Positions 12,055-54,909 of a DNA stretch of 64,000 bases are shown one piece after another. Made by a program: the position numbers and the translations under genes. Under the pieces are notes generated by a model. That model was not told where the DNA came from. It saw nothing but the letters and a program-made list of their open reading frames with translations, and ran no database searches. How positions within the stretch are numbered: position 1 is the first letter of the stretch; the number at the start of each line of letters is the position of its first letter. The DNA comes from Microlunatus capsulatus (GTDB lineage: Bacteria; Actinomycetota; Actinomycetes; Propionibacteriales; Propionibacteriaceae). The stretch lies in the NCBI RefSeq assembly GCF_017876495.1, contig NZ_JAGIOB010000001.1, forward strand, positions 3,720,001 through 3,784,000, read 5' to 3'.

Positions 12055-12079
12055 CGACGCTGCGCCGTGCGGCGCGCCC

Positions 12080-21628: not shown

Positions 21629-21635
21629 CCCGACC

Positions 21636-24094: not shown

Positions 24095-24100
24095 GCCGCC

Positions 24101-32554: not shown

Positions 32555-33969
32555 TGGCCAGCATGCTGAAGATGCGGCCCCGCAAGCCGAGCCGCCGCCA
32601 GCAGCGCGCCTGGGACAGCCGTCCCCACATCCTGGTCATCGTCCAGAACCTGCCGGTGCCGCTGGACCGCCGCGTCTGGCTGGAGTGCCAGACGCTGGCC
32701 GCCGCCGGCTACGCGGTCACCGTCATCTGCCCGAAGGGCCCCGGCGACCCCGGTCTCCAGGTCATCGACGGGATCACCATCCACAAGTACCGCCCGGCGC
32801 CGGAGGCCGGCGGCGTGGCCGGCTTCGTCCTGGAGTTCGCCTACAGCTGGCTCCGGACGGCCTGGCTCTCGACGCGGGTCTGGGCCGCGCAGCCGTTCCA
32901 GGTCATCCAGGCGTGCAACCCGCCGGACACCTACTGGCTGCTCGCCCGCCTCTGGCGCTCGCGGGGCGTCCGCTTCGTCTTCGACCAGCACGACCTCAAC
33001 CCCGAGCTGTTCCTGTCCCGCTTCGGCGAGCCGACGACGCCGTCGGCCCGGCTGCAGTACTGGGGTCTGTGCTGGCTGGAGCGGATGACCTACCGCACGG
33101 CGGAGATGGTCATCTCGACCAACGAGTCGTACCGGGCCGTCGCGATGGGCCGCGGCCACCGGCGGGGCGAGGACGTCGTCGTGGTGCGCAGCGGCCCCGA
33201 CACCAGCCGGATGCGGCCCGTCTACGCCGCCGACCCGGCGGCCGCCGACCGCCCGAAGACGCTGGTCTACCTGGGCGTGATGGGGCCCCAGGACGGGGTG
33301 GACGTCGTGCTCGACGTGATGGACGACCTCGTGCACCGCCGCGGTCGTCGTGACGTCCGGGCCGTCCTGATGGGCTTCGGGGACTGCTACGAGGAGCTGC
33401 GCGCCCGCTGCACCGAGCTGGGGCTGGACGACGTCGTCACCTTCACCGGCCGGGCCGACCTCGACGTCATCGCCGACCAGCTGAGCTCGGCGGACGTGGG
33501 CGTCTGCCCCGACCTCAAGTCGCCGCTGAACGACGTCTCCACGATGAACAAGACGATGGAGTACATGGCCTACGCGCTGCCCTCGGTGGCCTTCGACCTC
33601 ACCGAGACCCGGGTCTCCGGCGGGGACTGCGCGCTGTACGTCCCCTCGGGGGACGTGGGCGCCTTCGCCGACGCCGTCGCGTCGCTGCTGGACGACGACG
33701 ACCTGCGCTGCGCGATGGGCCGCAGCGCCCGCCGCCGCGTCCAGGAGGAGCTGGACTGGCGCACCCAGTCCACCGGCTACGTCGAGGTCTTCGACCGCGT
33801 GGCGGCCTGGTCGCCCGCCGAGCGCCGGGTGCCCGCCACCGTCATCGTCGACGCGGCCGCGGTGGCCGCCGAGCCGGTGGTCGAGCTCGACCACCGGGGC
33901 CGCCGCTACGTCGACCTCGGCGACGTCGCGGCGCTCGACCGCTTCATCCTGCAGCGGAGCTCCGCGTGA
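32554..33969 (+). CDS. glycosyltransferase family 4
   Basis: The 471-aa cytoplasmic glycosyltransferase has the two-lobed GT-B fold. The N-terminal lobe has HILVIVQNLPVPLDRRVW and the C-terminal lobe contains LVYLGVMGPQDGVDVVLD, VTFTGRADLDVIADQL and the donor-site region MNKTMEYMAYALPSVAFDL. The last glutamate of the usual E-x7-E appears as TETRVSGGDCALYV. About 60 residues follow the catalytic domain. It probably transfers a sugar onto the lipid-linked repeat unit. The start is coupled to the small upstream frame. Confidence 0.9.
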   Translation: MASMLKMRPRKPSRRQQRAWDSRPHILVIVQNLPVPLDRRVWLECQTLAAAGYAVTVICPKGPGDPGLQVIDGITIHKYRPAPEAGGVAGFVLEFAYSWLRTAWLSTRVWAAQPFQVIQACNPPDTYWLLARLWRSRGVRFVFDQHDLNPELFLSRFGEPTTPSARLQYWGLCWLERMTYRTAEMVISTNESYRAVAMGRGHRRGEDVVVVRSGPDTSRMRPVYAADPAAADRPKTLVYLGVMGPQDGVDVVLDVMDDLVHRRGRRDVRAVLMGFGDCYEELRARCTELGLDDVVTFTGRADLDVIADQLSSADVGVCPDLKSPLNDVSTMNKTMEYMAYALPSVAFDLTETRVSGGDCALYVPSGDVGAFADAVASLLDDDDLRCAMGRSARRRVQEELDWRTQSTGYVEVFDRVAAWSPAERRVPATVIVDAAAVAAEPVVELDHRGRRYVDLGDVAALDRFILQRSSA

Positions 33970-35363
33970 TCCCGGACTGGAGCACGTCCGACGACGGGGC
34001 GCTCGAGGACCGCCCCGCCGACCAGGAGGTCGGGGACCCCGGGGCCGCCGTCCGGATCTCGGTGATGGGCTGCGGCTACCTCGGCGCCGTGCACGCCGCG
34101 GCGATGGCCAGCCTCGGCCACGACGTCGTCGGCCTCGACGTGGACACGGCCAAGGTGGCCGACCTCGCGGCCGGCCGGGCGCCGTTCTTCGAGCCCGGGC
34201 TCGGCGAGCTGCTGGCCGAGGGCGCGCGCAGCGGCCAGCTGCACTTCTCCAGCGACGTCGCCGCGCTGACCGCGGCCGAGGTGCACTTCCTCTGCGTCGG
34301 CACCCCCCAGCGCCGCGGCGAGAACTCCGCGGACCTGCGGCACGTGGACGCCGCGGTGGCCCAGCTGCTGCCGCACCTCAAGCCCGGCGACCTCGTCGTC
34401 GGCAAGTCGACCGTGCCGGTGGGGACCGCCGAGCGGATCGCGGAGCAGGTGCGGGCCGTGGAGCCGGCGGCGACGCTGGTCTGGAACCCGGAGTTCCTGC
34501 GCGAGGGGCACGCCGTCGCGGACACCCTGGCCCCCGACCGGCTGGTCTACGGGGTCCCCGAGGGGCCGGCGGGGGAGCGGGCGGTGGCCGTGCTCAACCG
34601 CGTCTACGGCAAGGCGGTCGCGGAGGGCACCCCCGTCGTCGTGACCGACCTGACCACCGCCCAGCTGGTCAAGGTGGCGGCGAACTCCTTCCTGGCCACG
34701 AAGATCTCCTTCATCAACGCGATGGCCGAGCTGTGCGAGGCCACCGGCGGCGACGTCGTCCAGCTGGCCGAGGCGATCGGGTACGACGCCCGGATCGGCC
34801 GCCGCTTCCTCAACGCCGGGCTCGGCTTCGGCGGCGGCTGCCTGCCCAAGGACATCCGGGCCTTCATGGCCCGGGCCGGGGAGCTCGGCGTCGACCAGGC
34901 GCTGACGTTCCTCCGCGAGGTCGACGCGATCAACATGCGGCGCCGGGTGCGGATGGTCGACCTGGCCCGCGAGGAGTGCGGCGGCTCGCTGGCCGGCCGG
35001 CGGGTCGCCGTCCTCGGCGCGGCCTTCAAGCCCGACAGCGACGACGTCCGGGACTCCCCGGCGCTGAGCGTCGCGGCGCAGATGTCGCTGCAGGGCGCCG
35101 ACGTCGTGGTCACCGACCCGCAGGCGATCGCCAACGCGTCGGCGAAGTGGCCGGACCTGGTCTTCGCCGAGACCGTCGAGGAGACGGTGCGCGGGGCCGA
35201 GCTCGTGCTGCTGCTCACCGAGTGGCCCGAGTACGTCGCGCTCGACCCGGCCCGGGTCCGCACGCTGGTCCGCCGGCCGCGGGTGCTCGACGGCCGCAAC
35301 GCCCTCGACGCCGAGACCTGGCGGGCGGCCGGCTGGAGCTACCGGGCGCTGGGACGACGATGA
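33966..35363 (+). CDS. UDP-glucose/UDP-GlcNAc-type sugar dehydrogenase
   Basis: The 465-aa product is an NAD-dependent UDP-sugar 6-dehydrogenase that makes a UDP-uronic acid. After an acidic leader of about 28 residues come the NAD motif SVMGCGYLGAVHA, VGKSTVPVGT, WNPEFLREGHA, the catalytic cysteine Cys292 in GFGGGCLPKDI and the C-terminal KPDSDDVRDSPAL. Substrate choice between UDP-glucose and UDP-GlcNAc is not visible. With the acetyltransferase at 29431 and oxidoreductase at 57056, UDP-GlcNAc is a reasonable candidate. The start overlaps the previous gene by four bases. Confidence 0.9.
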   Translation: MIPDWSTSDDGALEDRPADQEVGDPGAAVRISVMGCGYLGAVHAAAMASLGHDVVGLDVDTAKVADLAAGRAPFFEPGLGELLAEGARSGQLHFSSDVAALTAAEVHFLCVGTPQRRGENSADLRHVDAAVAQLLPHLKPGDLVVGKSTVPVGTAERIAEQVRAVEPAATLVWNPEFLREGHAVADTLAPDRLVYGVPEGPAGERAVAVLNRVYGKAVAEGTPVVVTDLTTAQLVKVAANSFLATKISFINAMAELCEATGGDVVQLAEAIGYDARIGRRFLNAGLGFGGGCLPKDIRAFMARAGELGVDQALTFLREVDAINMRRRVRMVDLAREECGGSLAGRRVAVLGAAFKPDSDDVRDSPALSVAAQMSLQGADVVVTDPQAIANASAKWPDLVFAETVEETVRGAELVLLLTEWPEYVALDPARVRTLVRRPRVLDGRNALDAETWRAAGWSYRALGRR

Positions 35364-36964
35364 CGACGACCGTGAGGAGCGCCGCCGTGCGCACGAACCT
35401 GCACCACCTGCTCGAGCAGGCCGCGCACCGGCGACCGGACGCGCCCTGCCTGACCCACCGCACCCGCACCGCGACCTACGCCGACGTCTGGTCCGCCGTG
35501 CAGCGGGTGGCGGCCGGGCTCCAGGGCCTCGGGCTGCAGCGGGGCGACCGGGTCGCCGTCTTCGTCGACAAGCGGGTCGAGACCGTCGTCGCCCTGTTCG
35601 CCACGTCGGCGGCCGGCGGTGTCGTGGTGCCGGTCAACCACGTGCTCAAGGCGGCCCAGGCCACGTACATCCTGGGCAACTGCGGCGTCCGCGTCCTGGT
35701 CACCACCCGGGAGCGGCTGGCCCTGGTCCGCGAGGCCCTCGACGACCTGCCCGCGCTCGAGCAGGTCGTCCTGGTCGACGAGTCCGCCGACCAGGACGAC
35801 CTGCGTCCTGGCCGCGGGTTCGCGGTGCACCTCTGGGCCGACCTGCAGGGCGCGGACGCGCCGCTGGTGCCCCCGCCCGCCGTCGACGTCGACGTCGCCG
35901 CCATCTTCTACACCTCGGGCAGCACCGGCCGGCCCAAGGGCGTCGTGCTGTCCCACCGGAACCTGCTGGTCGGGGCCGAGAGCGTGAGCAGCTACCTGGC
36001 GAACACCGCGGACGACGTCATCCTCTCGGCGCTGCCGCTCAGCTTCGACGCCGGCTTCAGCCAGGTGACCACCGCGTTCGCGGTCGGCGCCCACGTGGTG
36101 CTGCACAACCACCTGGTGGCCGCCGACATCGTCAAGCTGGTCGCCGCGCACCGGGTGACGGGGCTGACCGGGGTGCCGCCGCTGTGGCTGCAGGTGGTCA
36201 GCGCCGCCTGGCCCGAGGGCGCCGGGGCGTCGCTGCGCTACTTCGCCAACACGGGCGGGCGGATGCCCAAGTCGACCCTGGAGCGGCTGCGGGCGCTCTT
36301 CCCTGCCGCGCAGCCCTTCCTCATGTACGGCCTGACCGAGGCGTTCAGGTCCACCTACCTCGACCCGGCGGAGGTTGACCGCCGCCCCGACTCCATCGGC
36401 AAGGCGATCCCGAACGCCGAGATCCTCGTCGTCCGACCCGACGGGACCCGCTGCGGTCCCGGCGAGGAGGGCGAGCTGGTGCACCGCGGCGCGCTGGTCG
36501 GGCTGGGCTACTGGGACGACCCGGTCAAGACGGCGGAGCGGTTCAAGCCGGTGCCCGGGGAGGCCGCCGCGTGGCGGACGCCCGAGGTGGCCGTCTGGTC
36601 GGGCGACCACGTCGTCGCCGACGAGGAGGGCTTCCTCTACTTCGTCGGCCGCACGGACGACATGATCAAGACCTCCGGGTACCGGGTGAGCCCGACCGAG
36701 GTCGAGGAGGTCGCCTACGACACCGGCCTGGTCCGCGACGCCGTCGCCCTCGGGGTGGAGGACGAGCGGCTGGGGCAGCGGATCGTCCTCGTGGCCACAC
36801 CGGTCAACGGCGACGAGCTGCGGCCCGACCAGCTGGTCGCCGCGTTCCGCAAGCAGCTGCCGCTGTACATGGTCCCCTCGACGGTGCTGGTGCGCGAGGA
36901 GCTGCCCCGCTCGCCGAACGGGAAGTACGACCGCAGCCTGATCCGGGCGGAGCTGACCGCGTGA
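35360..36964 (+). CDS. acyl-CoA ligase (AMP-forming), EPS-locus type
   Basis: The 534-aa adenylate-forming enzyme has the P-loop YTSGSTGRPKG (184-194), YGLTEAFRSTYL, the hinge region GFLYFVGRTDDMIKTSGYRV and the catalytic Lys522 in NGKYDRS. The YGLTEAFRS variant and its neighbours resemble the acyl-CoA ligases associated with proteobacterial exosortase/EPS loci. It probably activates a carboxylic acid, perhaps an amino acid, and loads it on the acyl carrier protein encoded downstream. ATG at 35360 overlaps the dehydrogenase stop (ATGA) and its stop overlaps the decarboxylase start. Confidence 0.87.
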   Translation: MTTTVRSAAVRTNLHHLLEQAAHRRPDAPCLTHRTRTATYADVWSAVQRVAAGLQGLGLQRGDRVAVFVDKRVETVVALFATSAAGGVVVPVNHVLKAAQATYILGNCGVRVLVTTRERLALVREALDDLPALEQVVLVDESADQDDLRPGRGFAVHLWADLQGADAPLVPPPAVDVDVAAIFYTSGSTGRPKGVVLSHRNLLVGAESVSSYLANTADDVILSALPLSFDAGFSQVTTAFAVGAHVVLHNHLVAADIVKLVAAHRVTGLTGVPPLWLQVVSAAWPEGAGASLRYFANTGGRMPKSTLERLRALFPAAQPFLMYGLTEAFRSTYLDPAEVDRRPDSIGKAIPNAEILVVRPDGTRCGPGEEGELVHRGALVGLGYWDDPVKTAERFKPVPGEAAAWRTPEVAVWSGDHVVADEEGFLYFVGRTDDMIKTSGYRVSPTEVEEVAYDTGLVRDAVALGVEDERLGQRIVLVATPVNGDELRPDQLVAAFRKQLPLYMVPSTVLVREELPRSPNGKYDRSLIRAELTA

Positions 36965-38187
36965 GCACCGAGAACCTGCTGCGCTCCTTCGGCACCGTCA
37001 AGGGGCAGCTGTCCGTCGGCGGCCTGCCGCTGGGCCTGCTGGCGGCGCGCGTCGGGTCGACGCCGTTCTTCGCCTACGACCGGCGGCTGATCACCGAGCG
37101 CGTGCAGCTGCTGCGCTCGGTGCTGCCCGAGCGGCTGCAGCTGACCTACGCCGTCAAGGCCAACCCGATGCCGGCGGTGGTGCAGCACCTCGCCGGGTTG
37201 GTGGACTCCCTCGACGTGGCCTCGGCCGGGGAGATGCTGGTCGCCCTGGACACCGGGGTGCCTGCTGAGCGCGTCAGCTTCGCCGGCCCCGGCAAGACCC
37301 CGGCCGAGATCCGGCGGGCCGTCGCGGCCGGGGTCGTGCTGGAGGTCGAGTCGGCCACCGAGGCACGCCGGGTGCTGGCGGCCGGCGACGCCCTGGGTGT
37401 GCGGGCGAGCGTCGCCGTCCGGGTGAACCCCGACTTCGCGGTCAAGGGGTCCGGCATGCGGATGGGCGGCGGGCCGCAGCAGTTCGGCGTGGACGCCGAG
37501 CAGGTGCCGGCCCTGCTGGGCGAGCTGGCGGGGGCGGACGTCGACATCCTGGGCTTCCACGTCTTCGCCGGCTCGCAGAACCTCCGCGCCGACATCCTCG
37601 CCGAGGCCCAGCGCCGGACCGTGGACCTGGTGCTGCAGCTGGCCGACCACCTGGCGTCGCCCCTGCGCTACCTCAACCTGGGTGGCGGCTTCGGCATCCC
37701 CTACTTCGCCGCGGACGAGGACCTCGACCTGGCCCGGGTGGCCGAGAACCTCCACGAGCTCGTCGACGGCGTCATCGCCGAGCGGTTCCCGCAGGCGCGC
37801 CCGGTCATCGAGCTGGGGCGCTACCTGGTGGGGGAGAGCGGGGTCTACGTCACCGAGGTGGTGGACCGGAAGGTCTCCCGCGGCAAGACCTACCTCGTCG
37901 TCGACGGCGGCATGCACCACCAGCTCGCCGCGTCGGGCAACTTCGGGCAGGTGATCCGGCGCAACTACCCGCTCGTCGTGGGCAGCCGGGCCGACGAGGC
38001 GCCCGCCGAGACGGTGTCGGTCGTCGGCTGCCTCTGCACCCCGCTGGACCTGCTCGGCAACGACGTCGAGCTGCCACCCGCCGAGGTCGGCGACCTCGTC
38101 GTCCTGTTCCAGGCGGGGGCCTACGGGCTCACCGCCAGCCCCACCGCGTTCCTCGGCCACCCGGCCCCGCTCGAAGTTCTCGTCTGA
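36961..38187 (+). CDS. PLP-dependent decarboxylase (DAP/ornithine decarboxylase fold)
   Basis: The 408-aa product has the alanine-racemase-like fold of group IV decarboxylases. Lys66 in TYAVKANPMP would hold PLP; GFHVFAGSQ, LGGGFGIPYF, ELGRYLVGESG and the active-site cysteine Cys359 in CLCTPLDLLGND complete the set. It resembles the exosortase-A-associated decarboxylases more than lysA by context, since it follows an acyl-CoA ligase and precedes an acyl carrier protein. It may decarboxylate a carrier-bound or free amino acid to give an amine. GTG start overlaps the ligase stop by four bases. Confidence 0.87.
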   Translation: MSTENLLRSFGTVKGQLSVGGLPLGLLAARVGSTPFFAYDRRLITERVQLLRSVLPERLQLTYAVKANPMPAVVQHLAGLVDSLDVASAGEMLVALDTGVPAERVSFAGPGKTPAEIRRAVAAGVVLEVESATEARRVLAAGDALGVRASVAVRVNPDFAVKGSGMRMGGGPQQFGVDAEQVPALLGELAGADVDILGFHVFAGSQNLRADILAEAQRRTVDLVLQLADHLASPLRYLNLGGGFGIPYFAADEDLDLARVAENLHELVDGVIAERFPQARPVIELGRYLVGESGVYVTEVVDRKVSRGKTYLVVDGGMHHQLAASGNFGQVIRRNYPLVVGSRADEAPAETVSVVGCLCTPLDLLGNDVELPPAEVGDLVVLFQAGAYGLTASPTAFLGHPAPLEVLV

Positions 38188-38281
38188 TGACCGGCGAAGG
38201 TCCGCCGGCCCGCTCCCGGCCTCGCATCCACTCCACCGGCCCGGCCGGTCGAGCCCACCGCACACCACAGGAGGACCACCC

Positions 38282-38545
38282 ATGGCCGATGACGCCACCG
38301 TCCAGCAGGTCAGCGCTCTCGTCGCCCGGACCCTCGGCATCGAGGACCGTCTGGCGGAGATGGACGCGAGCACGGGTCTCTTCGGGAGCCTTCCCGAGCT
38401 CGACTCCCTCGCCGTCCTCGAGCTCGTGCAGGCGCTCGAGGACGACCTCGGCCTCACCATCGAGGACGAGGAGTTCAGCGGCGAGCTGTTCGAGACGGTC
38501 GGGAGCCTTGCGGACTTCGTCGAGAGCAAGCGCCTCAGCGTCTGA
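38282..38545 (+). CDS. acyl carrier protein
   Basis: The 87-aa acidic helical protein has the phosphopantetheine site Ser42 in LPELDSLAVLEL, with helix II and III following normally. No fatty-acid synthase genes are nearby. It lies between the ligase/decarboxylase pair and the asparagine-synthetase-like gene, so it is probably a dedicated carrier for the activated compound. ATG at 38282 has GGAGGACC upstream, and 94 bases separate it from the previous stop. Confidence 0.92.
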   Translation: MADDATVQQVSALVARTLGIEDRLAEMDASTGLFGSLPELDSLAVLELVQALEDDLGLTIEDEEFSGELFETVGSLADFVESKRLSV

Positions 38546-38578
38546 GCAGCCGCTCCTGCTGCTGCGAGGGGGCGTTCG

Positions 38579-40318
38579 GTGATCCCGCCGGCAGGGCTCG
38601 TCGCCCTGACCGCTCCCGCCGGCCGTCGGGAGGAGCTGGAGCGACGCTGGGCGGGCTCCGGTGGGCCCGCTGAGGCGGACCTCGGATGGCACGGCTCAGC
38701 GCTGGTCGTCCGCTGGGGGTTGCCCGAGCCGGTCGCGACCGGGGTGCAGCCCCTGACGCTGACCGCCCGCACCCGTGAGGGATACCTGCACGGTGGCGAG
38801 CTCGGCACCGTGCTGGACGCGGGAGGCGTCGCGACCCTGCTCCCGCCCTTTGCGGTCCTGCGCTGCCTGCCGGACGGGGACCTCAGCGTCCAGGCGGACA
38901 GCATGGGGCTGCGGCAGCTGTACCAGGGTGAGCACGAGGGGGTGGCCGGGATCTCCACCTCGGCCGCACTCCTCGCCGCCTGTCTGGGCGTACGACCCGA
39001 CCCCGAGGGCGTCGCCGTGCAGGGCTGGTTGGGTTGGCAGCTCGGGCAGAGGACGCTCTGGGCGGGTGTGCAGAAGCTGGCGCCCGGCGTGGAGGCACGG
39101 CTGGGGCCAGCAGGGCTTCGGCTGCGGCCGGCCGCAGCTCATGCGGACGGGCCGATCCCCCTGGGGGAGGCCCTCGAGGGAGCGGCCGCGCTGCTGCGGA
39201 CCTCCCTGGCCCGCTTCCTCGACGAGCGTCCGGAGGGCGTCCTGCAGCTCACCGGCGGCCAGGACTCCCGGATCCTGCTGAGCGCGGTCGAGCCCGCGCG
39301 CCGTCGTGGCCTCGGCGCGATGACCCTGGGGCGACCGGGCGACCCCGACGTCGAGGTCGCCCGCTCGCTCGCCGCGCGGGTGGGACTTGAGCACGAGGTG
39401 CACGGTCTCGACGGCATCGAGGACCTGACCCCCGAGCAGGCGTGGGGACGGGTCGCGCGGGCCGCCGGGCAGCTGGACGGGATGGCCGACCCGCTCGCCA
39501 CCGCGGCTTTGGGGTGGGCGGAGGAGCGTTTCACCCCGTCGCCCCGGCTGTCGGGGCTCGGCGGCGAGGTCGCCCGGGGTTTCTACTACGACGCGTCGGG
39601 CCGCACCCGACCGGTGACCAGCGCCCGATCGCGACGGCTCGCGGGCTGGCGGCTCTTCGTCAACGAGGCCGTGGAGCGGGAGGCCCTGACGCCGGAGTTC
39701 GCCTCGTGGTCGCGCTCGACGGCAGAGCGTGCCGTCCACCGGGAGCTCGCGGCCTCCGGGCTGCCCTGGCTGCAGGCCACCGATGACCTCTACCTCCGGA
39801 ATCGGATGCAGCGCTGGGCGGGGGTGACCGAGACCGCCTGGTGCCTCGAGCGCGAGATCGTCAACCCGATGCTGGACCCGGAGTTCCTGGACCTCGTGGG
39901 ACGGCTCGACCCGCGGGACAAGCGTGGCTCCGTCTTCCTCGCGCGGCTGCAGATGACGTTGGACGACGGCCTCGGGCGGATCCCCCTCGACGGTCGGCCG
40001 CCTCCAGCCGTCTACGCCCAGCCCGGGGCCCGCACCGCCGGCGCGCGGGTGGGCAGCACCGGGCACAAGCTGGTCCGGAAGGCCGTGCAGAAGTTGCGTC
40101 GAGCCCAGCGACCCCCCGTGGGAGGTGAGGTGCTCGCCGCGCGGGTGCTCACCCACTGGCGGCAGAACCCGCAGCTCCTCGACGAGTCCCGGAAGACGGG
40201 GTTCCTGGACGAGCGGTGGGTGGACGATCTGGTGACGAAGGATGTCGCGGCGACGCCGAGCACTGTGGCGTTTCTCACATCGCTCGTCGTCACCTCAGGT
40301 CACAGCCGTCCCTCTTAG
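38579..40318 (+). CDS. asparagine-synthetase-like ligase lacking a glutaminase cysteine
   Basis: The 579-aa product has a PP-loop ATP-binding motif LTGGQDSR (224-231) and the AsnB C-terminal synthetase layout, including RMQRWAGVTE and the region FLARLQMTLDDGL. The N-terminal 200 residues resemble the beta-sandwich of class II amidotransferases, but the protein starts IPPAGLVAL, so the catalytic N-terminal cysteine is absent. It would need free ammonia or another amine as nucleophile, as in beta-lactam synthetase-type enzymes. It closes the ligase-decarboxylase-carrier group. GTG at 38579 follows GAGGGGGCG. Confidence 0.82.
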   Translation: MIPPAGLVALTAPAGRREELERRWAGSGGPAEADLGWHGSALVVRWGLPEPVATGVQPLTLTARTREGYLHGGELGTVLDAGGVATLLPPFAVLRCLPDGDLSVQADSMGLRQLYQGEHEGVAGISTSAALLAACLGVRPDPEGVAVQGWLGWQLGQRTLWAGVQKLAPGVEARLGPAGLRLRPAAAHADGPIPLGEALEGAAALLRTSLARFLDERPEGVLQLTGGQDSRILLSAVEPARRRGLGAMTLGRPGDPDVEVARSLAARVGLEHEVHGLDGIEDLTPEQAWGRVARAAGQLDGMADPLATAALGWAEERFTPSPRLSGLGGEVARGFYYDASGRTRPVTSARSRRLAGWRLFVNEAVEREALTPEFASWSRSTAERAVHRELAASGLPWLQATDDLYLRNRMQRWAGVTETAWCLEREIVNPMLDPEFLDLVGRLDPRDKRGSVFLARLQMTLDDGLGRIPLDGRPPPAVYAQPGARTAGARVGSTGHKLVRKAVQKLRRAQRPPVGGEVLAARVLTHWRQNPQLLDESRKTGFLDERWVDDLVTKDVAATPSTVAFLTSLVVTSGHSRPS

Positions 40319-42072: not shown

Positions 42073-42948
42073 TCACCAGGCGATCTGCGTGAGCTCGCTG
42101 TAGAGGTCGTCGACGTGTCGCTGCTCGACCGAGCTGCTGCGATAGAGCTTGGGCCGCCCTCCACCCCGCCACAGCGCACCGGGAGGACGTAGCCGGCTGA
42201 TCCGGTGCTCCACCAGCGCCAACGGTGCTCCGGTCCGGTGGAGGAGATGGGAGTGCAGGAGGCGCGAGCGGCGGGCGTAGAGCGTGGCGTTGCTGATGTG
42301 GAGCAGGCTCAGGAACAGCGGCAGCCCCTTCCGCCGGTCCCGCCGGACGATGACGTAGCAGCTCTGCGCCCCTTCCCGCAGGAGCACGTGCTGGACAGCC
42401 GGTGCATGCCGGTGGTCCTCGAAGAGCTCTCGCTGCTGCTCGGGGACGAGTCGCTCGATGGCCTGGACGTCGGACGTCACCCGGACCCCGGGGACCGGGG
42501 CCCAGGGCAGGTTCGGGACCAGGGACACCCGGGTGTCGAGATCGCGGAACCCTAGCCGTCGGTCCATGGCGACGACGTTGCCGCTCGGGGACAGGTCGGT
42601 GAAGGTCATCCCCCGTTGAGCGAGCACAGCCCTCACCAGCCGTAGCGCGTGGGTGCGGTAGGAGTCGAGGCAGCAGAGGGCGCCCAGGTTGCAGAAGCTC
42701 TCAGGACGCCCGTCGACGCACCGGGTGGAGTAGAACGCGAGGTTGGCTCCCACGACCTCTGAGTCGACGGTCAACATGTAGCCGTGGTTGGGTGCTCCGG
42801 CCATCCAGGAGGGTTGCATCCCGCGAACCCAGTCAGCAGCGGCGACCCGGGGGTTCAGCTCGCGGTGCAGGAAGGCGGCCACCCGCCCCACGTCGGAGGG
42901 GTGGATGGCGGACAGGGCGACTCCGTGTCCTGAGACGGGCGCGTCCAT
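42073..42948 (-). CDS. GNAT-type acyltransferase
   Basis: The 291-aa product has features of a GNAT domain in its first half (SAIHPSDVGRVAAFLHREL, YMLTVDSEVVGANLAFY) and a second half with SLLHISNATLYARRSRLL. It resembles N-acyltransferases found in exopolysaccharide clusters, which acylate sugar amines. It is divergent from the GT2 gene at 43097. The ATG at 42948 lacks a Shine-Dalgarno sequence, but TACGTT ends six bases upstream, so leaderless translation is likely. An in-frame extension up to 43278 runs antisense to that GT2 gene and is unlikely to be used. Confidence 0.7.
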   Translation of the reverse strand: MDAPVSGHGVALSAIHPSDVGRVAAFLHRELNPRVAAADWVRGMQPSWMAGAPNHGYMLTVDSEVVGANLAFYSTRCVDGRPESFCNLGALCCLDSYRTHALRLVRAVLAQRGMTFTDLSPSGNVVAMDRRLGFRDLDTRVSLVPNLPWAPVPGVRVTSDVQAIERLVPEQQRELFEDHRHAPAVQHVLLREGAQSCYVIVRRDRRKGLPLFLSLLHISNATLYARRSRLLHSHLLHRTGAPLALVEHRISRLRPPGALWRGGGRPKLYRSSSVEQRHVDDLYSELTQIAW

Positions 42949-43064: not shown

Positions 43065-43100
43065 ATGGACGTGACGTCCGGCCAGCAGGACCAGCGGTGA
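43065..43100 (+). CDS. possible 11-codon leader peptide
   Basis: ATG at 43065 opens the frame MDVTSGQQDQR, whose TGA overlaps the GTG start of the next gene by four bases. GAGGACC lies upstream. It may couple translation to the glycosyltransferase, or it may be an accident of sequence. Confidence 0.3.
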   Translation: MDVTSGQQDQR

Positions 43101-43960
43101 CGTCTGTCGTCATCGCCGCCCACGACGAGGCGGCGGTCATCGAGAGGTGCCTGGAGGGTCTCCGTGCGAACGGGCCGGGGCTCGATGTCGTCGTCGTGGC
43201 GAACGGCTGCGCGGACGACACGGCCGACCGGGCGCGCAGGGCCGGTGCACGCGTGCTCGAGCTCGCGGCCCCGGGCAAGGCCGCGGCACTCGACGCGGGG
43301 GACGCGGTCGCCTCCTCCTTCCCACGCCTCTACCTCGACGCGGACATCGTCGTCCCCTCCGGCGGGGTGGCCGCCCTGGTCGCAGCGCTCGGGCAGCCGG
43401 ACGGCGTCCTGGCCGCCGTGCCGTCCCGACGGGTCGACGTGAGCGGGCGACCCCTGCTCGTGCGGGCCTATTTCGCCGTCAACGGTCGGCTCCCCGCCTA
43501 CCGCGATGGATTGTTCGGCCGTGGGCTCATCGCTGTCTCCGACCGTGGTCGCAGCCGTTTCACCGGCTTTCCCCGCATGGTGGCCGACGACCTGTTCCTC
43601 GACTCGCTCTTCGGTCCCGAGGAGAAGCGCACGGTGACCTCGGTCGTGGTGGTCGTGGAGGCACCTCGTCGCTCGCGCGATCTCCTCCGCCGCCTTGTAC
43701 GCGTGCGCCGGGGCAACGCGGCGATGCGCCGCGCCGGCGTCAAGGGCCTGGTGACGGCGACGATCCGACCCGCGGACCGGTGGGCCTGGTGGGGCGTGGT
43801 GCGGACGCGACCTCAGCTCTGGCCCTCAGCAGCGGTCTACGTCGGGATCACGACCGCCGCTGCTCTCTGGGCGCGCATGACGCCGGGGGCGAAGGGCTGG
43901 GCCCGTGACGACAGCACACGGGGGTCGAGTCCGGGCTCGGCGGCGGAGGAGGCGGCATGA
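43097..43960 (+). CDS. glycosyltransferase family 2
   Basis: The 287-aa product is a GT-A glycosyltransferase with SVVIAAHDEAAVIERCL at the N terminus and the metal-binding DxD in LYLDADIVVP. GFPRMVADDLFLDSLF supplies the acceptor-side acidic residues. A hydrophobic stretch near residues 245-262 (LWPSAAVYVGITTAAALW) may anchor it to the membrane. It overlaps the downstream deacetylase by four bases. Base use at third codon positions looks less extreme than in the flanking genes, which may mean later acquisition. Confidence 0.88.
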   Translation: MTSVVIAAHDEAAVIERCLEGLRANGPGLDVVVVANGCADDTADRARRAGARVLELAAPGKAAALDAGDAVASSFPRLYLDADIVVPSGGVAALVAALGQPDGVLAAVPSRRVDVSGRPLLVRAYFAVNGRLPAYRDGLFGRGLIAVSDRGRSRFTGFPRMVADDLFLDSLFGPEEKRTVTSVVVVVEAPRRSRDLLRRLVRVRRGNAAMRRAGVKGLVTATIRPADRWAWWGVVRTRPQLWPSAAVYVGITTAAALWARMTPGAKGWARDDSTRGSSPGSAAEEAA

Positions 43961-44619
43961 GAGGCCCGCAGTTCAACATCTGCTTCCACGGGATCGGGAA
44001 CCCCGAGCGTCAGCTCGAGCCGGGCGAGGAGGCCTACTGGATCACGCCCCAGCTTTTCTCGGAGGTCCTCGACGAGGTGGTCGGCCGCGAGGACGTGGCC
44101 CTGAGCTTCGACGACGGCAACCGGTCGGACGTGACCCACGGGCTGCCGGGTCTGAGCGAGCGGGGCCTGGTGGCGACGTTCTTCGCACTGGCCGGGCGGC
44201 TGGAGCAGCCCGGGAGCCTCGGGGAGGTGGAGCTGCGGGCACTCCGAGCAGCCGGCATGACGGTGGGCAGCCACGGGTTCGACCACCGCCCGTGGCGGCA
44301 CCTGGACGAGGACCAACAACGGCGGGAGTTCGTCGAGGCGCGTCGCCTGCTCGTCGAGGCCTCGGGTGGAGCGGTCGACGAGGCGGCCCTGCCGCTCGGC
44401 CGTTACGACCGACAGGTGCTGGGCAGGCTTCGAGCGGAGGGGTACGACCACGTCTACTCCAGCGACCGGGCGCCGGCGCGACGCTCGAGCTGGTTGCAGC
44501 CGCGCTACAGCATCCGGGCCGGTGACAGCGGCGCGACGGTCCGCGCCATCCTGCTCCGTCCCGATGGCGTTCACCGGACGTTGCAGAGGGCGAGGATGAC
44601 CGTCAAGCGGTGGCGATGA
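43957..44619 (+). CDS. NodB-type polysaccharide deacetylase
   Basis: The 220-aa product has the NodB fold: LSFDDGNRSD with catalytic and metal-binding Asp residues, and VGSHGFDHRPW with the His pair. The third motif is degenerate (LPLGRYDRQ where R-P-x-G is usual). No signal peptide is visible, so it would act in the cytoplasm on a lipid-linked or nucleotide sugar, removing N- or O-acetyl groups. It is coupled to the GT2 gene and ends 13 bases before the convergent beta-helix gene. Confidence 0.83.
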   Translation: MRGPQFNICFHGIGNPERQLEPGEEAYWITPQLFSEVLDEVVGREDVALSFDDGNRSDVTHGLPGLSERGLVATFFALAGRLEQPGSLGEVELRALRAAGMTVGSHGFDHRPWRHLDEDQQRREFVEARRLLVEASGGAVDEAALPLGRYDRQVLGRLRAEGYDHVYSSDRAPARRSSWLQPRYSIRAGDSGATVRAILLRPDGVHRTLQRARMTVKRWR

Positions 44620-45610: not shown

Positions 45611-46125
45611 GGCCCGGTCTCGCGGTCCTCCGGGCCGAGCACCCGGATCTTGCGGGCCGGGACGCCTGCGTAGAGGGTGTCCGGGTCGCAGGTCCCCGTG
45701 ACGACGGAACCGGCGGCCACGACTGATCCTCGCCCCACGACGGCACCGGGCATCAGCACCGCTCTCGCCCCGATCCAGGCCCCGTCCTCGATGACGACGG
45801 GAGCCGCGCTCAGGGCTCCTGCCCGGCAGTCGGGTCCGCCGATGCTGTGCGAGCCGGTGAGGATCATCACCTCCATGCCCAGGTGCACCCGCTTCCCCAC
45901 CCGGATCGGACCGATGCCGTCGAAGAACACCCCACGGTTGACGTAGGCGCTCCGACCGATCGTCACGTCCCGGCTGCCGAACCAGCACCTCGCCCCGACC
46001 GAGGCCCGCTCGAGCCGGACGCCGTAGGCCTTGAGCAGTGCCCACCGCAGGTGCCGCGGGGTCAGCACCGAGGCCCCCCAGGTGTTGACGAGGGCGTCAC
46101 GCACCAGCTCACCGGCCGATCTCAT
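45607..46125 (-). CDS. WcaF-type hexapeptide acyltransferase
   Basis: The 172-aa product has a left-handed beta-helix with FFDGIGPIRVGKRVHLG, GSHSIGGPDC and VVIEDGAWIGARAVLMPGA, matching the CoA-dependent O-acetyltransferases of polysaccharide loci. The histidine in GSHSIG is the probable catalytic base. It is coupled to both neighbours by 4-base overlaps. It probably O-acetylates a sugar of the repeat unit. Confidence 0.88.
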   Translation of the reverse strand: MRSAGELVRDALVNTWGASVLTPRHLRWALLKAYGVRLERASVGARCWFGSRDVTIGRSAYVNRGVFFDGIGPIRVGKRVHLGMEVMILTGSHSIGGPDCRAGALSAAPVVIEDGAWIGARAVLMPGAVVGRGSVVAAGSVVTGTCDPDTLYAGVPARKIRVLGPEDRETGP

Positions 46126-47075
46126 CGGGACGCCGGGTGGAGCAGGGACCGGCCGTGCCCGGGCTCGAGCGACCAGGGACCCGCCGGCTCGCGCAGGCGT
46201 CGTGGGTCGAGGAGGAAGGCGAGAGCCGCTCGACTCGTCGGCCGGCCGAGGCAGGCGCGCGAGAGCTCGCGCAGCACGACGGCTGACCAGAAGGCGAGTG
46301 CCGCGACGCGACCGTTCCTCTTGCGGTGCAGGCGGACCCGGTTCACCTGCAGCAGGGCCCAGAGCGGGGGCGAGCCGGCCGAACCACCCTCCAGGTGGGT
46401 CGCGCGGGCGTCCGGCACGTAGCGGGTGCTGTACCCGAGGTCGCCCGCCCGCAGGTCGAAATCCGCCTCCTCGGAGTAGAGGAAGAAGCTCTCGTCCCAC
46501 GGGCCGCACGCTTCCCAGCACGCGTGGCTGACGAGCTGGGTCGAGCCCTCCGCCCAGGGGGTCGACGTCGACCGGTCGTACCGACGAGGGTCGCTGACCA
46601 CCTCGCCGAGCGTCCCGATGCGCCCTGCGCGCTCAGCACCGAGAGCAAGATCGGCCAGCACCCGCACCACAGTGGGCTCGCGGCGCATGGACAGGATGAG
46701 CTGGCCCAGGCCATCGCTGAGCCGCGGGACGGCGATGCCGACGCCGGGCTGGTCGAGCGCGTCGAGCAGTCCCTCGACGCACCCCGCGTGCAGACGCACG
46801 TCCGGGTTGAGCACCAGGTAGGCGTCACGGCGTCCCGCTGCGAGCACGGCGGCATTGATGCCCGCTGCGTACCCGGCGTTGCGGCCCATCTGCACCACGT
46901 CGGCGGCGGGAGCCTGGGCGCGGACCTCCTGGACGGTGCCGTCCATCGAGTCGTTGTCGGCGACCACCAGATGCCAGGTGAAGGCTTCGCTCGTCGGCAG
47001 CGAGGCCACGAGGTCGGCGACGAGGCCCGCGCTGTTGAACGTGACGACGACGATGGCGATGTCGGGTCGGGTCAC
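46122..47075 (-). CDS. glycosyltransferase family 2 (rhamnosyltransferase-like)
   Basis: The 317-aa product starts IAIVVVTFNSAGLVADLV and has VVADNDSMDGT, GRNAGYAAGIN and the DxD-like LVLNPDVRL. WEACGPWDESFFLYSEEADF is typical of WbbL-type rhamnosyltransferases. A weak C-terminal hydrophobic segment may contact the membrane. The GTG start overlaps the polymerase stop by four bases. Confidence 0.9.
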   Translation of the reverse strand: MTRPDIAIVVVTFNSAGLVADLVASLPTSEAFTWHLVVADNDSMDGTVQEVRAQAPAADVVQMGRNAGYAAGINAAVLAAGRRDAYLVLNPDVRLHAGCVEGLLDALDQPGVGIAVPRLSDGLGQLILSMRREPTVVRVLADLALGAERAGRIGTLGEVVSDPRRYDRSTSTPWAEGSTQLVSHACWEACGPWDESFFLYSEEADFDLRAGDLGYSTRYVPDARATHLEGGSAGSPPLWALLQVNRVRLHRKRNGRVAALAFWSAVVLRELSRACLGRPTSRAALAFLLDPRRLREPAGPWSLEPGHGRSLLHPASR

Positions 47076-48559
47076 GACGGACCTCCTACCGGTGCGGCGG
47101 GCGACGGGAGACGCGCGTCGACCGCTCCGAGCGGCGGCTCGAGGCTGAGGCGGTGGGCTGCGCCGGCCAGCCCGACGAGGAGGAAGGTCGAGCCGGCCAC
47201 CATCGGGAAGCCCCAGGCGTCGAACGTCAGGTAGCTGAGCACGACGCCGACGAGCGACGCCGAGAGCACGAGCGCCAGGTGCCGTTCACGCTCGGAGGTC
47301 AGCCGACGCCGGGCCGCCCTGGCCAGGTAGACCCCGGTCCCCAGGAAGACCAGCGTGGCCGCGAGGCCGATCGCCCCGAGCTCGACGAGCGTCATCAGCA
47401 TCTGGTTGTCGAGGATGCGGTAGTAGCGGGGGACGAAGGTGAAGAGGCCGCGTCCGAGGAGCGGGTGCTCGGTGTAGAGGCCCAGGACAGCGCTGTAGTC
47501 AGCGGTGCGCCCGGTCACGCTGGGGTCGTCGCCGAGGTTGCCGAAGAGCGAGCGGATCGTGCCGACCAGGCCGGGGGCCACGAGACGCATGCCGACGACG
47601 GCCAGCGGGGCCAGCAGCAACCCCCGGATCCGCCAGCGAGCGGGCCAGCCGACGAAGACCACGGCGCAGGCGAGCGCGAGGGCGAGGATCGCCGACCGAG
47701 ACACCGACATGGGGAGCGCGGTGCCGATGACGAGCGTGGGAAGCCACCGCAGGATCCACGACCGGTTGGCGGCGAACAGGCTCCGGTGCAGCGCGAGGAG
47801 GAAAACCCCGGCGAGCAGTACCCCGAACTCGATCGGGTGGACTGCTGTGCTCGAGACGCGGTTGAGGACCGAGCGGGAGACGACCTCGCCGAAGTCGGAG
47901 TTGGCGCTCAGGCCGGGGATGGTGAACAGTGCCGCGATGTCGTAGGCGGTGAAGTACTGGACGATCCCCAGGGCGGCGACGAAGGTGCCGAAGCCCACCA
48001 CCCATCCGACCACCCGCTCCAGCTCGTGGCTGGTCCGCAGTCCTTCGCTGGCCAGCAGCACGACACCGGCCCAGCCGGCGACCGAGAGCAACCCGCGGTC
48101 AGCCGCGCTGATCATCGTGGCGTTGAGCTGGTCCGCTGGCACCGCGACCAGCGTCCAGAGCTCGTCGGTGGACTGGCGGATGTCCGCCGGGGAGTACCAG
48201 CCGGCGGCGTTGCCGGCCACGTAGCTCGCGAGCACGGCCCCGACCAGGAGCCCGACGCTCACGCGGGTGGGGGTGAAGCCCCGGACCGGGTTGCGGCCAC
48301 CGAGCGTGGCGAGCAGCCACCAGAGGAGCGCCAGGATCCCCCACAGGTTCGCCGGGGTGCCGGGGGCGCCCAGCGGCCGGATGACGAGCTGGGAGGGGAT
48401 GCAGAACAGCAGGAAGACGTACACGACCACGAACACGCGGGCCGGGATGCTCAGAGAGCCGTCCTTCCAGGAGCGCACCAGGCCCGCCCGACGCGCCGCC
48501 GCCCAGGAGACGGTGGCGCCGAGGGGACCGGACCCCTCCGTCCGGAGAGCGTCGGTCAC
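47072..48559 (-). CDS. O-antigen polymerase/ligase (Wzy/WaaL-like)
   Basis: The roughly 495-aa integral membrane protein has about 11 helices and a large outer loop near residues 330-370 ending in GLYTEHPLLGRGLFTFVPRYY, typical of O-antigen ligase-domain polymerases (PF04932). It would join lipid-linked repeat units outside the membrane. I prefer GTG at 48559, which overlaps the Wzz stop by four bases as elsewhere in this operon; an upstream GTG at 48571 is also open. Confidence 0.85.
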   Translation of the reverse strand: MTDALRTEGSGPLGATVSWAAARRAGLVRSWKDGSLSIPARVFVVVYVFLLFCIPSQLVIRPLGAPGTPANLWGILALLWWLLATLGGRNPVRGFTPTRVSVGLLVGAVLASYVAGNAAGWYSPADIRQSTDELWTLVAVPADQLNATMISAADRGLLSVAGWAGVVLLASEGLRTSHELERVVGWVVGFGTFVAALGIVQYFTAYDIAALFTIPGLSANSDFGEVVSRSVLNRVSSTAVHPIEFGVLLAGVFLLALHRSLFAANRSWILRWLPTLVIGTALPMSVSRSAILALALACAVVFVGWPARWRIRGLLLAPLAVVGMRLVAPGLVGTIRSLFGNLGDDPSVTGRTADYSAVLGLYTEHPLLGRGLFTFVPRYYRILDNQMLMTLVELGAIGLAATLVFLGTGVYLARAARRRLTSERERHLALVLSASLVGVVLSYLTFDAWGFPMVAGSTFLLVGLAGAAHRLSLEPPLGAVDARLPSPAAPVGGPS

Positions 48560-49320
48560 GAGTCCCACCACCGGGCTGCGGCTGATGCGCTCACCCGCTC
48601 CCGCGGGCGGTCCTCGGCGGGGCGCAGCCGTTCCCCGGCGTCAGGTCGCACCCGCTCGTCCGCGCGGGAGCGCGGCGTCGCGCGCGGCGTCGGCGCGGCC
48701 GCCCGGACCTCCTCCCGATCCTCCTCCGGCCGCCGCCGGTCACGGATGAAAGCCACGAGGAGGGTGGTGACCACCCCCACGCCGCCGATGACGGCGAGGG
48801 CACGGATCTTGCTCCCCGGCAGCGGCTCCGCCACCGACGGCGCGCTGTTGGGTCGGGCGTCGATCAGCTGACGCTGCGGAGCGTTGACGGCTGACTGGAT
48901 CCGCGCGAGCTCCACCTGCAGCCTGCGGATGACCTCGTCCCGCGTCCGCACGGCCATGGCGCCGTCGGTGTCCTCCGTGCTGATCACCAGGACGGGGCCG
49001 GCGTCGGGACTGAGGCCGATGGCGTAGTCGGAGGTGAAGCCCGCAGCCTCGAGGCTGCGGGCCGAGTCCTTGGTGCTCAGCGTCGAGGCGATCAGGGAGG
49101 CCGTGACCGTCAACCCGGGCTCGAGGTTGAGGTAGGGGTTCGTCGGGGTCGCGGCGCCCGTCGCCTGGGGCGGGAGGAGCATCACCAACTGGCCGGTGGC
49201 CTGGTACTGGGTCGGCACGAGCGCGACGGCGGCGGCGGCCGCGGCGAGCACCACGGCGGCACCTACGGCCATCACCCGCCAGCGTCGCAGCAGCACCCTC
49301 AGGGCGTCGATGAAGTCCAC
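48556..49320 (-). CDS. Wzz-like chain-length protein
   Basis: The 254-aa product has the co-polymerase layout: N-terminal helix (VMAVGAAVVLAAAAAAVAL), an outer domain with YQATGQLVML and TASLIASTLSTKDSARSLE, and a C-terminal helix (ALAVIGGVGVVTTLLVAFI, about 172-190). A basic, Pro-rich cytoplasmic tail of about 60 residues follows and has no kinase domain or Tyr cluster. It probably sets polymer length with the neighbouring polymerase. Confidence 0.82.
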   Translation of the reverse strand: MDFIDALRVLLRRWRVMAVGAAVVLAAAAAAVALVPTQYQATGQLVMLLPPQATGAATPTNPYLNLEPGLTVTASLIASTLSTKDSARSLEAAGFTSDYAIGLSPDAGPVLVISTEDTDGAMAVRTRDEVIRRLQVELARIQSAVNAPQRQLIDARPNSAPSVAEPLPGSKIRALAVIGGVGVVTTLLVAFIRDRRRPEEDREEVRAAAPTPRATPRSRADERVRPDAGERLRPAEDRPRERVSASAAARWWDS

Positions 49321-49321
49321 G

Positions 49322-50593
49322 TCAGCTCGCTCCTGCCGGTGCGTGCACCGGCTCCTGCAGGCGGGCGAAGCAGTGGTGTTCCACTGCTTCCACCACCTGT
49401 CCGGCAGTGGTGGCCCAGCTTCCTCGCGTCGGCGACGACGCGGTGGCCCGGCGGTCCAGGGTGGCGCCGCTGGACACCGTGGCGCCCAAGGCGTCGGCGA
49501 GGGCGGACGGCGTTCCGGCGGCCCACACCACCGAGGGGTTGGTCAGGCACGCGCGGGGTTCCGGGGCGTCGTTCACGACCGGGACCACGCCGGCGCTCAA
49601 CATCTCCTCCGCCACCAGCGAGACGTTGGTGAAGGAGAGGGCGAGCCCGGCGACGGAACGGTTGTAGAGGTCGTTGAGCTCGGCCGGTGTCAACCGGGGG
49701 TAGATCTCGGCCGGGAAGGGGAGGTTGCGCAGGTGAGCACCGTAGATCCGGATCGGCACGTCCGGGTGACGCCGGTGGAAGCGCGTCAGGCTCAGCTCCG
49801 CCATGGCCCAGCCCCGTCGCGGGTTCCCGGGGCGCGCGTAGCAGACGACCCCGGTGCGCTCGGCCGGCGGCGACTTGACGAAGTAGGTCGTGGTGTCCGA
49901 GCCGAAGTCCACCACGGTGGAGGGGACCCCGAGCTGGCTGCGGAGGCAGTCCGCCACCATCGAACCGAGGGCGAGGACGTGGAAGCCGAAGCGGTAGCTG
50001 TCCTCCGCCAGGGCGTACTCGGTGCCCCTCGGGTAGAAGTACGGCTCGTAGTCCTGCACGAAGTAGAAGCGCTGCATGGGAGCCGCACCGAGGGTGGCCA
50101 GCACGTGCGCCGACTCCCACGAGGTGGCGATGCAGGCGTCCAGGGGCCTGCCGCCCGTCGGGCGGCTCCCTCCCGGGAGCGCGTCGCTGGAGAGCACCTC
50201 GGCCCGCACTCCGGGCCATCCCTCCCGGACGGTGCGCCGCTGCGCCTCCAGGTCCCCGTCGTGCCGGTCGTAGAGGTAGAGGCGGCAGCGGTGCCCGGCC
50301 CGCTCGAGGCCCTCGACCATGCGGAACATCGTCGTGTGACCGCCGGAGCCGAGTGTGGGTGGTGTGCAGATCCATCCGATGGTCAGGGGCTGGTCAGCGG
50401 CGGCGGGATGGGTGGGCCACCGCAGCTGCAGCTCGGTCGAGTCCGCGACCAGGTGCTCGTGGAGCGTCAGCTCGTTGCCGGCACCCCAGCGCTGAGCCGT
50501 CACCGTGACGGCCTTGCGTGCAACTGCACGAGGTCCCTGACGCCTCAGCACACGCGCGCCCCGGGTGAGCAGGTGTCGGACGCCCTCAGCCAC
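49322..50593 (-). CDS. glycosyltransferase, WsaF-like (GT4 type)
   Basis: The 423-aa product has the motifs of rhamnan-type transferases like WsaF: IGWICTPPTLGSGGHTTMF, RFYFVQDYEPYFYPRG and FVAEEMLS-type donor region VSLVAEEMLSAGVVPVV. I set GTG at 50593, preceded by CGGAGG and overlapping the aminotransferase gene by eight bases. A longer open frame to 50836 would be antisense-like sequence inside that gene. Confidence 0.85.
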   Translation of the reverse strand: MAEGVRHLLTRGARVLRRQGPRAVARKAVTVTAQRWGAGNELTLHEHLVADSTELQLRWPTHPAAADQPLTIGWICTPPTLGSGGHTTMFRMVEGLERAGHRCRLYLYDRHDGDLEAQRRTVREGWPGVRAEVLSSDALPGGSRPTGGRPLDACIATSWESAHVLATLGAAPMQRFYFVQDYEPYFYPRGTEYALAEDSYRFGFHVLALGSMVADCLRSQLGVPSTVVDFGSDTTTYFVKSPPAERTGVVCYARPGNPRRGWAMAELSLTRFHRRHPDVPIRIYGAHLRNLPFPAEIYPRLTPAELNDLYNRSVAGLALSFTNVSLVAEEMLSAGVVPVVNDAPEPRACLTNPSVVWAAGTPSALADALGATVSSGATLDRRATASSPTRGSWATTAGQVVEAVEHHCFARLQEPVHAPAGAS

Positions 50594-54267: not shown

Positions 54268-54908
54268 CCGGCGGCATCCCGGAGAGATCGGGCCGGCACG
54301 CCGGCCCAGGTCTGGCCCGCGGGGAGATCCTGGAGCAGGACGGCGCCCATGCCGAGGGTGGCGCCGGCCCCCACCTCGACGCCCTGGCGCACGCTGCTGC
54401 TCATCCCCAGGTAGGCGGCGGAGCCGACACGGACGCCGCCACCCAGGCGGACCCCCGCGCAGAGGGTCGCGTAGTCCTCGACCTCGTCGTCGTGCGTCAG
54501 CGTCACCTGCGGCATGACGACCACGTGCCGGCCCACGACCACGTCCGACGTCAGCACCACGCCCGCGAGCAGCACGCTGCCGCTCCCGACCCGGCACGAG
54601 TCCGGCACCCGGACCGAGGGGTCGACGACCGTCGCCCACCGGTCGGCCGAGACGCCGTCCCGGGCCAGCCGCTCGGCCAGGGCGCGGCGGCCCTGCCCGC
54701 GGCCGGCGCACAGCACCAGCAGCGCCTCCGAGTGGTCGTGCAGGGCCTCCGTGCCACCCAGCACGGGGTGTCCTCCGACCGTCGTGCCGTGCCGAACCGG
54801 GTCGTCGTCGACCAGGCCGACGACCTTCAGGTCGGTGCTGGTCTCGAGCGCGGCGACGACCTCGCGGGCGAGGCCTCCCGCCGCGACGAGGATGACGCTG
54901 TCGGACAC
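54264..54908 (-). CDS. sugar O/N-acetyltransferase (NeuD/PglD-like)
   Basis: The 214-aa product has an N-terminal nucleotide-binding region (LVAAGGLAREVVAALE) followed by hexapeptide repeats (VVVGRHVVVMPQVTLTHDDEV, the histidine being the likely base). This matches NeuD/PglD-type enzymes that acetylate amino sugars. With the aminotransferase encoded one base upstream it forms a usual pair for making an acetamido sugar. Confidence 0.88.
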   Translation of the reverse strand: MSDSVILVAAGGLAREVVAALETSTDLKVVGLVDDDPVRHGTTVGGHPVLGGTEALHDHSEALLVLCAGRGQGRRALAERLARDGVSADRWATVVDPSVRVPDSCRVGSGSVLLAGVVLTSDVVVGRHVVVMPQVTLTHDDEVEDYATLCAGVRLGGGVRVGSAAYLGMSSSVRQGVEVGAGATLGMGAVLLQDLPAGQTWAGVPARSLRDAAG

Positions 54909-54909
54909 C

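Follow-up and report, generated by a model that had tools for sequence, protein, structure and literature searches.

A ligase, decarboxylase, carrier and tandem-GNAT gene set in a polysaccharide locus of Microlunatus capsulatus: a candidate pathway for beta-alanyl modification

A gene module of the actinobacterium Microlunatus capsulatus may build a beta-alanyl group on its own carrier protein, for attachment to the polysaccharide of its locus or to a precursor, a proposal that we judge evenly poised between right and wrong. The module lies in a window of 64,000 nucleotides (the whole stretch analysed; assembly GCF_017876495.1, contig NZ_JAGIOB010000001.1, positions 3,720,001 to 3,784,000), which is part of a single 4.41-Mb contig. 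The original prediction, made from the nucleotide sequence, had described four consecutive open reading frames coding for an AMP-forming ligase, a decarboxylase resembling LysA, a free carrier protein with Ser42 and an AsnB-like protein. All four were found at their predicted positions (Table 1), and residue 42 of the carrier is a serine. In the proposed mechanism the ligase would adenylate the side-chain carboxylate of L-aspartate and load it onto the Ser42 phosphopantetheine of the carrier. The pyridoxal phosphate (PLP) decarboxylase would strip the alpha-carboxylate from the bound aspartate, giving beta-alanyl-S-carrier. A tandem-GNAT acyltransferase would take the beta-alanyl thioester as acyl donor and N-acylate a sugar amine, which could be supplied by the adjacent NodB-family deacetylase or by DegT aminotransferases. 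Loading and decarboxylation of aspartate are probable, as both enzymes resemble, at individual residues and by family, ones that have been characterised in vitro; transfer to a sugar amine, proposed from fold, co-occurrence and gene order, falls slightly short of an even likelihood.

Related loci were collected as the best 80 of at least 412 decarboxylase relatives (66-82% identity), and the counts given below cover these closest relatives only. A gene was scored as present when blastp with the window protein gave a match at 1e-6 covering at least half of the query.

The ligase scored 751.4 bits with TIGR03098 (cut-off 592.35). The top match of its pocket fragment in the Protein Data Bank (PDB) was VinN; with the whole ligase, no single-domain chain scored higher than VinN, which was surpassed by multi-domain peptide synthetases on the sum of their domains. 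In VinN, Asp230, Ser299 and Arg331 have been proposed to bind the amino group and the alpha-carboxyl group (PMC7756342). These residues were placed in the printed alignment by one chain offset of 16, which was consistent for all three. When the window ligase was aligned with those of 74 related loci, Asp230, Thr298, Arg330 and the catalytic Lys522 were present in all 75 rows, Asp230 corresponding to Asp230 (proposed to bind the amine) and Arg330 to Arg331 (proposed to bind the alpha-carboxylate) of VinN. The pocket aspartate and arginine were also kept in ligases of Sinorhizobium meliloti, Aureimonas, Burkholderia and an exosortase-linked locus of Sphingomonas, the last two of which likewise exceed the TIGR03098 cut-off. 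In the Burkholderia ligase the distance from Arg324 to Lys515 is 191 residues.

The decarboxylase scored 584.7 bits with TIGR03099 (cut-off 478.45) and 238.2 bits with the lysA model TIGR01048, under the cut-off of 297.9. Its top PDB match was BtrK, an enzyme decarboxylating carrier-bound glutamate, with 272.7 bits versus 155.7 bits for the best LysA, a difference of 117 bits. Lys66 and the motif CTPLD were present in all 81 rows of the decarboxylase alignment; the corresponding motif is CTPED in BtrK and CETGD in the LysA shown. The original prediction would have fallen had this gene been the only lysA of the genome, but a separate true lysA was found at about 619 kb, scoring 436.2 bits with TIGR01048, and LysA identity was rejected for the module enzyme. 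Among the matches listed, the nearest decarboxylase was that of Microlunatus flavus (82%). Taken together, the VinN-type pocket residues and the BtrK-type similarity suggest that aspartate is the substrate and that beta-alanyl-S-carrier is formed.

The decarboxylase was present in all 80 related loci, the carrier in 78 (Asp41-Ser42 was found in 79 of 79 aligned rows) and the ligase in 75. These three genes stay together, as the original prediction required of all four, but the AsnB-like gene was found in only 14 loci. The constant fourth member is instead the tandem-GNAT gene outside 35360-40318, present in 67 of the 80 loci. The earlier idea that a carrier-bound amino acid is converted to an amine-bearing unit was right in outline and wrong in the composition of the module. 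These counts led to the rejection of the AsnB-like protein as a core member, as did its presence in 4 of the remaining 13 actinobacterial loci whose decarboxylase is over the cut-off; UDP-glucose (uridine diphosphate glucose) dehydrogenase, found in 7/80 loci, was rejected likewise. Among the 66 loci with full flanks 58 had the GNAT protein. In 35 of these the gene order was acyltransferase-ligase-decarboxylase-carrier with the acyltransferase gene within 400 bp of another module gene; in 13 it was likewise adjacent in other gene orders, and in 10 it was more distant.

The same association was seen at the level of genomes. A TIGR03099 match at E<=1e-100 was found in 21 of the 393 genomes searched within the class, and in 14 it was over the cut-off. 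The GNAT-family profile matched 13 genomes, every one of which is among these 14, whereas the remaining 379 gave no match (Fisher p 2e-23, uncorrected for shared ancestry; the 13 genomes span 4 genera). When 20 kb were compared around the 13 over-cut-off decarboxylase genes besides that of the window, the acyltransferase, the ligase and the carrier were each found in 12. Six of the seven below-cut-off decarboxylase loci were also compared (L041-L046). Four had the decarboxylase alone, L043 and L046 had an additional distant ligase (27% and 34%) and carrier, and the GNAT gene was in none; these loci were treated as other pathways. Twenty arbitrary 20-kb control regions from five of the genomes with related loci, picked at round positions rather than drawn at random or from other polysaccharide loci, gave no match to the ligase, decarboxylase, carrier, acyltransferase or deacetylase.

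The putative acyltransferase had no Pfam match at E 0.05. A model built from 36 sequences had a mean predicted local distance difference test (pLDDT) score of 93.6 and a predicted template modelling (pTM) score of 0.90. The PDB matches shown by Foldseek were GNAT-type enzymes, including a tandem-repeat GNAT, Eis proteins and N-myristoyltransferases, with E values down to 1.7e-9, probability 1.00 and query TM-scores of 0.34-0.58 among the 50 rows shown. By its modelled fold the protein is a tandem-GNAT acyltransferase; its donor and acceptor are predictions.

Polysaccharide genes recur around the module: in the 80 loci relatives were found of the deacetylase (51), of glycosyltransferases (50 and 46) and of an O-antigen ligase (42), and the glycosyltransferase divergent from the GNAT gene had relatives in 32. 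The deacetylase motif [ST]FDDG was present in 47 of 52 rows; a poor regular expression detected the second NodB motif in 14 of 52, and only the first motif was relied on. A deacetylase gene was near the module in 46 of the 58 full-flank loci with the GNAT gene and in none of the 8 without it. This suggests a NodB/NodA logic, in which an amine is exposed and then N-acylated from the carrier. In Nod factor synthesis a deacetylase is likewise combined with a carrier-dependent N-acyltransferase (PMC5080398). The likeness to NodA is one of logic; the GNAT protein matched no Pfam family at E 0.05, and its predicted acyl group is beta-alanyl instead of a fatty acid.

The loci come from Actinomycetota and Rhizobiales, plus one contig labelled Stenotrophomonas. 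On S. meliloti pSymB and on an Aureimonas plasmid the acyltransferase, ligase, decarboxylase and carrier genes lie within annotated polysaccharide loci. The decarboxylase tree was midpoint-rooted, with an unsure backbone and two long outgroup branches, and no direction of transfer is claimed from it. In this tree the decarboxylase of the contig labelled Stenotrophomonas maltophilia (L071) stood among Microbacterium sequences, pointing to assembly contamination or recent transfer. A plasmid search (40 of 54 records listed) gave one Burkholderia record, a Burkholderia cenocepacia plasmid (L026), whose decarboxylase, on one of the two long outgroup branches, fell inside the main group. There the TIGR03098 and TIGR03099 members have acyl-CoA dehydrogenases, LuxR/LuxI and three KAS III-like proteins as neighbours. 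Because these neighbours do not show it to be the AFC-BC11 cluster, that identification was dropped, and the record was used solely as a family member outside an exopolysaccharide (EPS) context.

Ligase, carrier and decarboxylase form a triad of a familiar type, of which the pairing with a tandem GNAT at polysaccharide loci is a new version. According to the published descriptions, a VinN-type ligase, a free carrier and a PLP decarboxylase give beta-alanyl-S-carrier from L-Asp in the pathways of AFC-BC11 (AfcQ/AfcK/AfcP, Burkholderia) and bolagladin (BolO/BolC/BolN). In vitro, AfcQ charges AfcK with L-Asp, which AfcP then decarboxylates on the carrier (PMC12186527), whereas the role of the bolagladin proteins was deduced from gene deletion and homology. 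In vicenistatin synthesis an aspartate-type acid is loaded by VinN on the free carrier VinL and then decarboxylated by VinO (PMC11284099). AfcP, VinO and, from gene deletion, BolN are thus reported in these sources to act on carrier-bound aspartate-type substrates. The uses differ. The AFC-BC11 and bolagladin units enter a lipopeptide, whereas the window set belongs to polysaccharide loci, where it is accompanied by a tandem GNAT and where a KAS III-like acyltransferase was not seen; the vicenistatin unit primes a polyketide synthase. BtrK of the butirosin pathway, the best solved relative of the decarboxylase, shares the use of a carrier-bound amino acid, which in its case is glutamate. The butirosin pathway ligase is of another kind than the window ligase.

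Several observations weigh against beta-alanylation by this module. The VinN Ser299 position is occupied by Thr298 in 75/75 rows, a conservative change; a threonine is found here in the Burkholderia ligase too, and a serine in that of Sphingomonas. The CTPxD motif is also present in PDB entry 6knh, labelled probable diaminopimelate decarboxylase, so the motif alone is no proof of a carrier-bound substrate. In L103, L122 and L123 the ligase orthologue is replaced by another adenylation-type protein lacking the threonine and the arginine (positions 11183-12889, 11515-13209 on the minus strand and 7593-9080, respectively; 97-124 bits with TIGR01733, below its cut-off), and the substrate may therefore differ there; all three loci have the GNAT, decarboxylase and carrier genes. 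Finally, 13 of the 80 loci had no GNAT match, 8 of them with full flanks, and in the window itself the GNAT gene stands outside the operon, about 1.8 kb past the AsnB-like gene and on the opposite strand.

The GNAT enzyme could also work the other way round, an acyl group from acyl-CoA capping the amine of beta-alanyl-S-carrier, with the product perhaps released by the AsnB-like protein or a glycosyltransferase. Acylation of the beta-amine on the carrier is known from related systems, in which VinM adds L-Ala and AfcA adds myristate, and many of the GNAT fold matches are acetyl-CoA enzymes. Such a route would call for a second transferase, but no constant one was seen among the window proteins across the 80 loci, the AsnB-like protein being confined to 14, and we consider it unlikely. 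If the ligase and decarboxylase used a different diacid (3-methylaspartate, glutamate or diaminopimelate, for instance), a different amine-bearing acyl group would be made. VinN itself favours 3-methylaspartate, the substrate of BtrK is bound glutamate, and the score of the decarboxylase on the lysA model, though under the cut-off, is 238 bits. Against this, AfcQ, which has the same arginine, uses L-Asp, every decarboxylase row carries CTPLD in place of the CETGD of LysA, and a glutamate mutase was not noticed among the annotated window genes, where no search was aimed at one. The use of another diacid appears quite improbable.

It is very unlikely, too, that the genes make a small diffusible natural product and lie in a polysaccharide locus by coincidence, even though every characterised relative of the triad that was found serves natural products, and three loci from streptomycetes or Saccharothrix (L112, L115 and L120) show none of the tested polysaccharide genes. 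These three branch outside a group that takes in the remaining rows from Actinomycetota and Rhizobiales (98/98; midpoint root), and the deacetylase, glycosyltransferases and O-antigen ligase recur alongside the module in Actinomycetota and Rhizobiales alike.

The curated NCBI families TIGR03098 and TIGR03099, of model type hypoth_equivalog, have no assigned chemistry; their name, "exosortase A system-associated", gives a genomic context and nothing more. The kinship of the ligase and the decarboxylase with exosortase-associated proteins, and the lack of an exosortase, had both been predicted. The scores over both cut-offs agreed with the former. As to the latter, no exosortase (PF09721) match was found anywhere in the genome by a search that was positive in 1 of 14 named controls, Methanocaldococcus jannaschii, and an exosortase partner was rejected for this genome. 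When 40 genomes with the decarboxylase were checked (the 14 over-cut-off genomes of the class and 26 of the 80 loci), three gave matches at E<=0.001, one of them over the cut-off (partial, 27.6 bits). No exosortase was annotated in the 25-29 kb shown of the S. meliloti pSymB and Aureimonas loci, for which the gene table is incomplete. The EPS loci with exosortase A (XrtA) share with the window the two families over cut-off; they differ in that the window genome is without an exosortase match and in that the tandem GNAT was not found in the single XrtA locus examined (L027). The pocket aspartate and arginine of the Sphingomonas ligase at an XrtA locus suggest that the inference of aspartate may extend to exosortase A loci.

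It is possible, though we hold this more tentatively than the transfer step, that Actinomycetota and Rhizobiales have in common an exosortase-free modification of polysaccharide, in which a sugar amine is exposed and re-acylated by the tandem GNAT with carrier-bound beta-alanine, or with a short beta-alanine oligomer if the ligase iterates like AfcQ, and that the same chemistry is the role of the exosortase A pair. If beta-alanyl-S-carrier is indeed the product of the two families, so far named only after exosortase, they would gain a concrete role and EPS loci, whether or not they have an exosortase, a testable substituent; a chemistry familiar from polyketides and peptides would extend to surface polysaccharides, and the tandem GNAT would define a new acyltransferase family. 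No link of the pair to beta-alanyl-carrier chemistry was found in the open-access literature, most subscription journals lying outside the scope of the search. The words 'ligase' and 'decarboxylase' are absent from the 2006 PEP-CTERM/EpsH paper, as are 'exosortase' and 'polysaccharide' from the AFC-BC11 paper.

The AsnB-like protein matched no Pfam family at E 0.001 and scored far under the cut-offs of NF033561 (33.7 bits, cut-off 300) and TIGR01536 (26.7 bits, cut-off 267.1). Its model (pLDDT 85.4) has the AsnB/carbapenam-synthetase fold and matches carbapenam synthetase and TsnB9, and the TGGxDSR loop was invariant across 15 rows. The N-terminus, MIPPAG, is without Cys2 of glutamine-hydrolysing asparagine synthetase; a check for this cysteine flagged 1 of 14 relatives, via an internal VCG, the exact starts of the relatives not being fixed. 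As a guess, the protein may form an amide bond between two substrates as an optional extra decoration.

The features of the window are listed in Table 1. Stop and start overlap by 4 bases between the UDP-glucose dehydrogenase and ligase genes and between the ligase and decarboxylase genes, the carrier gene is preceded by AGGAGG, and the gap between the carrier and AsnB-like genes is 33 bp. A single transcript is therefore likely for the genes from the dehydrogenase to the AsnB-like protein.

Table 1. Module genes and surrounding polysaccharide genes in the window
Feature	Position	Strand	Remarks
UDP-glucose/nucleotide-sugar dehydrogenase	33966..35363	+	TIGR03026 402 bits, cut-off 189.8; context only, no constant partner
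VinN-like AMP-forming ligase	35360..36964	+	534 residues; TIGR03098; predicted to load L-aspartate (side-chain carboxylate) on the carrier
PLP decarboxylase	36961..38187	+	408 residues; TIGR03099; predicted substrate carrier-bound aspartate
Free acyl/peptidyl carrier protein	38282..38545	+	87 residues; PF00550 35 bits (cut-off 20.8); predicted phosphopantetheine site Ser42
AsnB-fold ligase, optional accessory	38579..40318	+	579 residues; without N-terminal glutaminase cysteine
Tandem-GNAT acyltransferase, constant fourth partner	42073..42948	-	start codon uncertain
Family 2 glycosyltransferase, divergent from GNAT gene	43097..43960	+	PF00535 44.5 bits
NodB-family polysaccharide deacetylase	43957..44619	+	PF01522 70.1 bits; no signal peptide seen by eye
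Remaining polysaccharide locus (glycosyltransferases, epimerase, Gfo/Idh oxidoreductase etc.)	46122..58114	-	Pfam matches
Wzy-like protein	47072-48571	-	Pfam match
Wzx-like protein	51755-53218	-	Pfam match
DegT aminotransferases, two	50586-51782 and 54910-56052	-	Pfam matches
Hexapeptide acyltransferase	54264-54908	-	Pfam match

In the segment 50586-58114 (minus strand) the two DegT proteins, the Gfo/Idh oxidoreductase, the epimerase and the hexapeptide acyltransferase resemble an amino-sugar pathway, which could provide the acceptor amine. The GNAT, glycosyltransferase and deacetylase genes are bracketed by genes for two related right-handed beta-helix-like proteins. The one at 40498-42018 (plus strand) is a DUF4082 protein (PF13313) with relatives in 38/80 loci; the one at 44633-46045 (minus strand) had no Pfam match. 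A secreted-looking protein of 1905 residues (58159-63876, minus strand) contains repeats that by eye are similar to the DUF4082 region of the former. At 21098-25216 (plus strand) genes for small secreted-looking proteins alternate with genes whose products by eye resemble SipW-type signal peptidases.

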